The position numbers and the translations under genes are program-made. 50,692 nucleotides of DNA from assembly GCA_027067775.1 (NCBI GenBank), contig JAMOVK010000042.1:1-50692 (forward strand). The letters are read 5' to 3'. The notes beneath the pieces were generated by a model. The model ran no database searches. It was not told where the DNA came from and saw only the letters and a program-made list of their open reading frames with translations. Shown in pieces: positions 11,076-11,769 of this stretch. Position 1 is the stretch's first letter, and each line of letters begins with the position of its first letter. This DNA comes from Deltaproteobacteria bacterium. GTDB lineage: Bacteria; Desulfobacterota; Dissulfuribacteria; Dissulfuribacterales; QOAL01.

Positions 11076-11252
11076 TCAAAGGAATTTTTTGTTTAGAAAC
11101 TCGCACTCTTTTGGAGAAAGATCGAATTTTATCTCAGCTTCAAGGATAAGCTCTTTTCTTGATTTTTCCGGATGTTCTTTGATCATTTCCGAGAACCATT
11201 TGACAGCCTTTCTTAACTTTTCACCTTCTGGAAGCAGTTCTTCTGTAGTCAT
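11076..11252 (-). CDS. Small conserved-looking protein, 58 aa, downstream of the candidate selenoprotein
   Basis: Absent from the ORF track (under 60 aa). Reverse complement from ATG (11250-11252) to TGA (11076-11078): MTTEELLPEGEKLRKAVKWFSEMIKEHPEKSRKELILEAEIKFDLSPKECEFLNKKFL; starts 17 bp after the stop of the upstream gene. Confidence 0.7.
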   Translation of the reverse strand: MTTEELLPEGEKLRKAVKWFSEMIKEHPEKSRKELILEAEIKFDLSPKECEFLNKKFL

Positions 11253-11269
11253 AAATTATACCATCCTTT

Positions 11270-11740
11270 TTATTCTATATTGTATTCTTCCATGATGTTT
11301 TCTAGATACTCTGTGGTCTTCCCTATAACAAAAATGCATTCCGTGCGTCTACTCGAAGGATCCTTGTAAAAGGACCTTACCTGTTTGGGATCTTTCCAGT
11401 CTACTCTGGCAATATCCTTGCAGTCCATTCCACCGTATTGTGCTGTTATATCTTGAAATGCCTTAACCATTTTGCTGGCCAGTTTCCACATGAGCTTGTG
11501 GTCCCTTTTTGAAGGTTTATCTTTTCCCATAAAAAAACCAAGAACACCAAGTGCTCCAGCTAAAGTTCCGCATGTACTCCCTGTACTGCCAAGACCTCCT
11601 CCAAACGGGGCAAGGGCCCTTATTACTCCTAATGCCCCGATTCCATGTTTTTCTGCAACTGCAGAAAATACAGCCTGGCTTCAGTGAAAACCCTCTTTGA
11701 ACAAAAGCTGGGCTCTTTGTGCCGTAGTTGAATCCTTCAT
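11270..11740 (-). CDS. Putative selenoprotein of the C_GCAxxG_C_C redox family (Sec at codon 20, TGA at 11681-11683)
   Basis: Reverse-complement translation: MKDSTTAQRAQLLFKEGFH[U]SQAVFSAVAEKHGIGALGVIRALAPFGGGLGSTGSTCGTLAGALGVLGFFMGKDKPSKRDHKLMWKLASKMVKAFQDITAQYGGMDCKDIARVDWKDPKQVRSFYKDPSSRRTECIFVIGKTTEYLENIMEEYNIE. SD AAGGAGGT just upstream of ATG 11738-11740. Remaining family cysteines intact (TCGTLAG, MDC, TEC). Confidence 0.85.
11649..11668 (-). promoter_or_regulatory. Candidate bacterial SECIS element
   Basis: On the coding strand: TGA, 20 nt, then loop AGTT within stem TTTTCTGC/GCAGAAAA (8 perfect bp). Distance and a G among the first two loop bases fit the general bacterial SECIS pattern. 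Confidence 0.75.
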
Positions 11741-11769
11741 GAAACCTCCTTGGAATTTCAGTTAAAATC

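Follow-up and report, generated by a model that had tools for sequence, protein, structure and literature searches.

A predicted selenoprotein gene of the C_GCAxxG_C_C family, cut short by standard ORF calling, in the genome of a member of the Dissulfuribacterales

Introduction

Selenocysteine (Sec)-containing members of the C_GCAxxG_C_C family (PF09719/TIGR01909) have been recognised since 2007-2008 (reviews PMC9312934, PMC13188914). The Sec form of PF09719 is one entry in the 2022 selenoproteome review (PMC9312934), the 2026 review (PMC13188914) distinguishes a 'form 1' from a 'form 2', and the NCBI name of TIGR01909 is 'C-GCAxxG-C-C family (seleno)protein'. Repeated exchange between Sec and Cys is known for bacterial selenoproteins in general (PMC13188914). 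The same review describes the bacterial SECIS (bSECIS) element as a hairpin with a loop of 3-9 nt, a stem of 4-16 bp, a G among the first two loop nucleotides, a spacing of 16-37 nt from the UGA and a minimum free energy of at most -7.5.

Here, we analyse contig JAMOVK010000042.1 (50,692 nt, hereafter the window), from the genome of an anaerobic bacterium of the Deltaproteobacteria (Dissulfuribacterales; QOAL01). An earlier note, made from the sequence alone, had proposed that a gene in this window encodes a selenoprotein.

Results

The ORF listing of the window contains only an 86-aa C-terminal ORF of the gene. On the minus strand, the same frame extends through one in-frame TGA to give 156 residues, with the predicted Sec at position 20 (U20), a start ATG at 11738-11740 and a stop TAA at 11270-11272. 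The features of the gene are as follows:

11270..11740, minus strand: predicted selenoprotein gene, C_GCAxxG_C_C family (PF09719/TIGR01909), from its translation, profile scores and an alignment with 30 homologues
11744..11751, minus strand: Shine-Dalgarno sequence AAGGAGGT of the gene, from the sequence
11681..11683, minus strand: in-frame TGA, predicted to be read as Sec, at the first invariant Cys column, from the alignment and the TGA in gene-bearing congeners
11649..11668, minus strand: putative SECIS hairpin TTTTCTGC-AGTT-GCAGAAAA, from its fold, frozen synonymous sites and enrichment in TGA members

With U read as C, the protein scored 79.9 bits against PF09719 (cut-off 27, E 2.1e-22) and 51.2 bits against TIGR01909 (cut-off 47.4), in both cases above the curated cut-off. 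The Cys/Sec columns invariant in 17 aligned members, namely 20 (Sec), 57, 107 and 135, are all present, which together with these scores places it in the family. A whole-genome search found no other PF09719 copy in the genome. The sequence reads as the earlier note had it, with a full frame of 156 residues crossing a single TGA and preceded by an ATG and a Shine-Dalgarno sequence, and its proposal that the TGA occupies the family's first conserved Cys was borne out by the alignment, where this column is invariably Cys or Sec. An in-frame TGA aligned with the Cys of homologues is what is expected of a selenoprotein. Standard ORF calling thus shortens the gene, and restoring its full 156 residues is a useful correction of the annotation.

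The assembly (2.42 Mb, 99.97% complete) encodes the machinery that a bacterial selenoprotein requires. It contains one copy of selA (612 bits), one selB over its cut-off (381 bits), one selD over its cut-off (362 bits) and a tRNA-Sec gene (selC; 74.9 bits, anticodon TCA, confirmed by ARAGORN). The four genes that the earlier note had proposed to look for are, therefore, all present in the same genome. The selD gene has an in-frame TGA of its own (locus L019, about 1530-1532, context AAG-U-AAK), at the active-site position where SelD enzymes carry Cys or Sec. On this basis, SelD of this genome is probably a selenoprotein too, a prediction independent of that for the gene described here.

We then compared the gene with its counterparts in 60 relatives, 46 of which contain the PF09719 family. 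TGA occupies the Sec column in all eight gene-bearing genomes of the genus (the window's own and seven others), in G010 and G016, which belong to another genus of the same family, and in G055, elsewhere in the phylum. The codon at this column is TGC or TGT in 20 relatives. At this position, Cys is found in G014 and G018, congeners of G010 and G016, and genus g3 contains both Sec and Cys versions. With selA present in 56 of the 60 relatives, a Cys form is not simply a sign that the use of Sec has been lost. A tree of Sec and Cys forms required eight changes by parsimony, at least two of them forced by well-supported branches. Repeated exchange of Sec and Cys among these relatives is therefore likely on this tree, the number of switches beyond two not being forced by it.

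A phylum-wide search of 297 genomes retrieved many further TGA members, with TGA at the same column spread over several families elsewhere in the phylum. When 20 further stretches from this search were inspected, 18 had the TGA on the same column, within the motif G-x-x-U-A/S-E/Q; L085, with its TGA elsewhere, and L096 fall outside this count. Among genome contigs, just one distant named relative was found, and searches of viral contigs and plasmids retrieved no relatives.

Two variants of this family stood apart in these data. In L085 (G168), also of PF09719, the usual Sec column is occupied by Cys, and an in-frame TGA occurs about 17 codons later, where the alignment column is variable. An 8-bp hairpin follows this TGA directly, closer than SECIS spacing, and the TGA may reflect an error or have some other explanation. 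L099 and L100 (G044 and G047, of the same order) are tandem fusions, in which two C_GCAxxG_C_C domains share one frame, with TGA at the Sec column in the first domain and Cys in the second.

The hairpin downstream of the TGA agrees with the bSECIS description on every count, having a 4-nt loop (AGUU), an 8-bp stem, a spacing of 20 nt and an energy of -10.3 kcal/mol over 36 nt. The earlier note had described a perfect 8-bp stem and an AGTT loop whose G is as expected of bacterial SECIS elements, and this stands, but the stem begins 12 nt after the TGA and it is the apical loop that begins at 20 nt. Of the 1,849 TGA triplets counted over the two strands of the window, this one alone has, at SECIS distance, a perfect 8-bp stem whose first two loop nucleotides include a G. 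The 56-nt stretch had a folding z-score of -2.85, and an equally good fold arose in 4 of 200 shuffles. In a protein-preserving control, 12% of synonymous recodings yielded an equally stable hairpin; energy alone is, thus, not significant, and the case for a SECIS element rests on conservation instead. Neither in the window nor at the locus did a search with Rfam yield a SECIS family.

Two lines of conservation bear on this element. Under the same geometric criteria, a hairpin of -6 kcal/mol or lower with a loop G was present in 24 of 29 TGA members, whereas among Cys members the count was 6 of 44 (Fisher p 3e-9, an optimistic value because near relatives were counted separately). Among six congeners, for three of which protein identity to the window's protein was 57-73%, the five consecutive codons F25-A29, which lie in the hairpin, are identical, and outside the hairpin region a codon was retained at only one of 57 shared residues (p 6e-6 for the entire stretch after the TGA). 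Of the nucleotides, 17 consecutive ones are invariant in the six congeners. The hairpins of G005/G003 and G010/G016 have other stem and loop sequences, but a stem and a loop G are retained. Judged by the contrast between TGA and Cys members and by the frozen codons, the hairpin is a selected element.

Directly downstream of the gene lies a small ORF on the same strand:

11076..11252, minus strand: 58-codon ORF (MTTEELLPEGEKLRKAVKWFSEM...)

No Pfam or NCBIfam match was found for its 58-residue product. Homologues were found in 43 of the 49 genomes of the order, at 53-100% identity. The ORF adjoins the selenoprotein gene in its own genus and in genus g5, and it is encoded on other contigs than the selenoprotein gene in most remaining genomes of the order. 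It is a probable operon partner of the selenoprotein gene in the window's own and nearby genera.

Discussion

The conserved TGA, the hairpin and the Sec machinery point to a selenoprotein gene rather than a pseudogene. We are highly confident that this is a functional gene decoded by ordinary SelB/SECIS recoding, with the insertion of Sec itself deduced from these features. SelB carrying Sec-tRNA(Sec) would bind the mRNA hairpin just downstream of the UGA, and the ribosome would place Sec at residue 20, in lieu of the first conserved Cys of the family. In bacteria, a SECIS element and its SelB may be matched in a species-specific way. The predicted product, of 156 residues, would have four invariant chalcogen residues: Sec20, Cys57, Cys107 and Cys135.

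A pseudogene or a sequencing error would instead imply that the TGA is a true nonsense codon or a miscalled TGC/TGT, and that the product is no more than an 86-aa fragment, if there is any. That the ORF listing shows only the C-terminal ORF, and that the energy of the hairpin is unexceptional under synonymous recoding, agrees with this view. However, the TGA and the frame downstream of it are conserved. Its presence in seven further genomes of the genus shows that the TGA is not a base-calling error, and in all eight the downstream gene is otherwise intact. None of the three outcomes by which the earlier note would have been refuted (missing Sec machinery, homologues without Cys or Sec at this column, a miscalled TGC/TGT) was observed. 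Frozen codons confined to the hairpin and the complete Sec machinery in the genome also argue against decay, and we consider this explanation very improbable. Even less probable is a reassignment of TGA to another amino acid, or its suppression and readthrough without selenium, although for such decoding an intact frame with an internal TGA would be enough. Against it, 11 of the 37 long ORFs of the window end in TGA (some of these ORFs being spurious antisense ones), the TGA coincides with an invariant Cys and has the SECIS hairpin downstream of it, and tRNA-Sec and SelB are encoded in the genome.

For a protein so decoded, the four invariant residues most likely form a redox-active site, made up of a thiol/selenol pair or of ligands to a metal centre, the redox role being suggested by cysteine conservation. 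The model that AlphaFold produced from the sequence alone was of too low quality to bear on this (pLDDT 48). A functional variant of the selenoprotein reading, which we regard as possible if rather unlikely, is that the chief role of Sec is to ligate an iron or iron-sulfur centre rather than to take part in thiol exchange. The first two Cys columns of the family resemble part of split-Soret cytochrome c: a profile of 17 homologues matched this protein (PDB 1h21, E 2.7e-5, profile positions 14-77), with Cys57 on its GTICGAL motif and Cys20 near its GFGCG. A novel iron centre was reported for split-Soret cytochrome c, according to the title of Abreu et al. as cited in PMC5701242. The match to 1h21 is, however, weak and spans only half of the protein.

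A more specific proposal, in which the four Cys of the family bind an iron or iron-sulfur centre in the manner of split-Soret cytochrome c and Sec here takes the place of one Cys ligand, is somewhat more doubtful still. If true, the repeated Sec/Cys exchange would constitute a natural series for testing the effect of selenium on such a centre. In Desulfococcus biacutus, a PF09719 protein was induced during growth on acetone (PMC4103992). The profile match, the reported iron centre and the acetone induction are functional leads only. Independently of the chemistry involved, the occurrence of closely related Sec and Cys versions in a single bacterial family, and of both in genus g3, offers a clean comparison of the contribution of selenium.

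With Sec forms of PF09719 already catalogued and TIGR01909 named a '(seleno)protein' family, the gene adds a member to a known selenoprotein family and is not new in kind; the doubt about novelty voiced in the earlier note was, thus, well placed. Several related systems differ from it in definable ways. The DVU_1555 family C-GCAxxG-C-C protein (NF045669) gave a full-length match (E 2.9e-22), but membership is ruled out by a score of 78.9 bits against a cut-off of 103. The HUGP/GUXX-star fusion (NF045501) is also a selenoprotein, with a related N-terminal domain (residues 7-129, E 3.9e-12), but this assignment is ruled out as well: the score of 46.2 bits is below the cut-off of 325, and the C-terminal GUXX-star domain is absent from the window's protein, which ends at residue 156. 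Split-Soret cytochrome c, distantly matched across the first two Cys columns, is a c-type cytochrome, whereas the translation of the window's gene lacks the heme-binding CxxCH motif, which rules out that identity.

The closest described systems are the Sec forms 1 and 2 of PF09719 (MGD8741185.1, WP_012158890.1; PMC9312934, PMC13188914). The window's protein belongs to the same family, above both curated cut-offs, but it represents another lineage and sequence. The motif of forms 1 and 2 is printed as '-' in the reviews, without the Sec column, so the likeness holds at the family level. Compared with these forms, the gene described here adds to PF09719 a genus-wide and well-supported predicted Sec form, by a mechanism that is not new.
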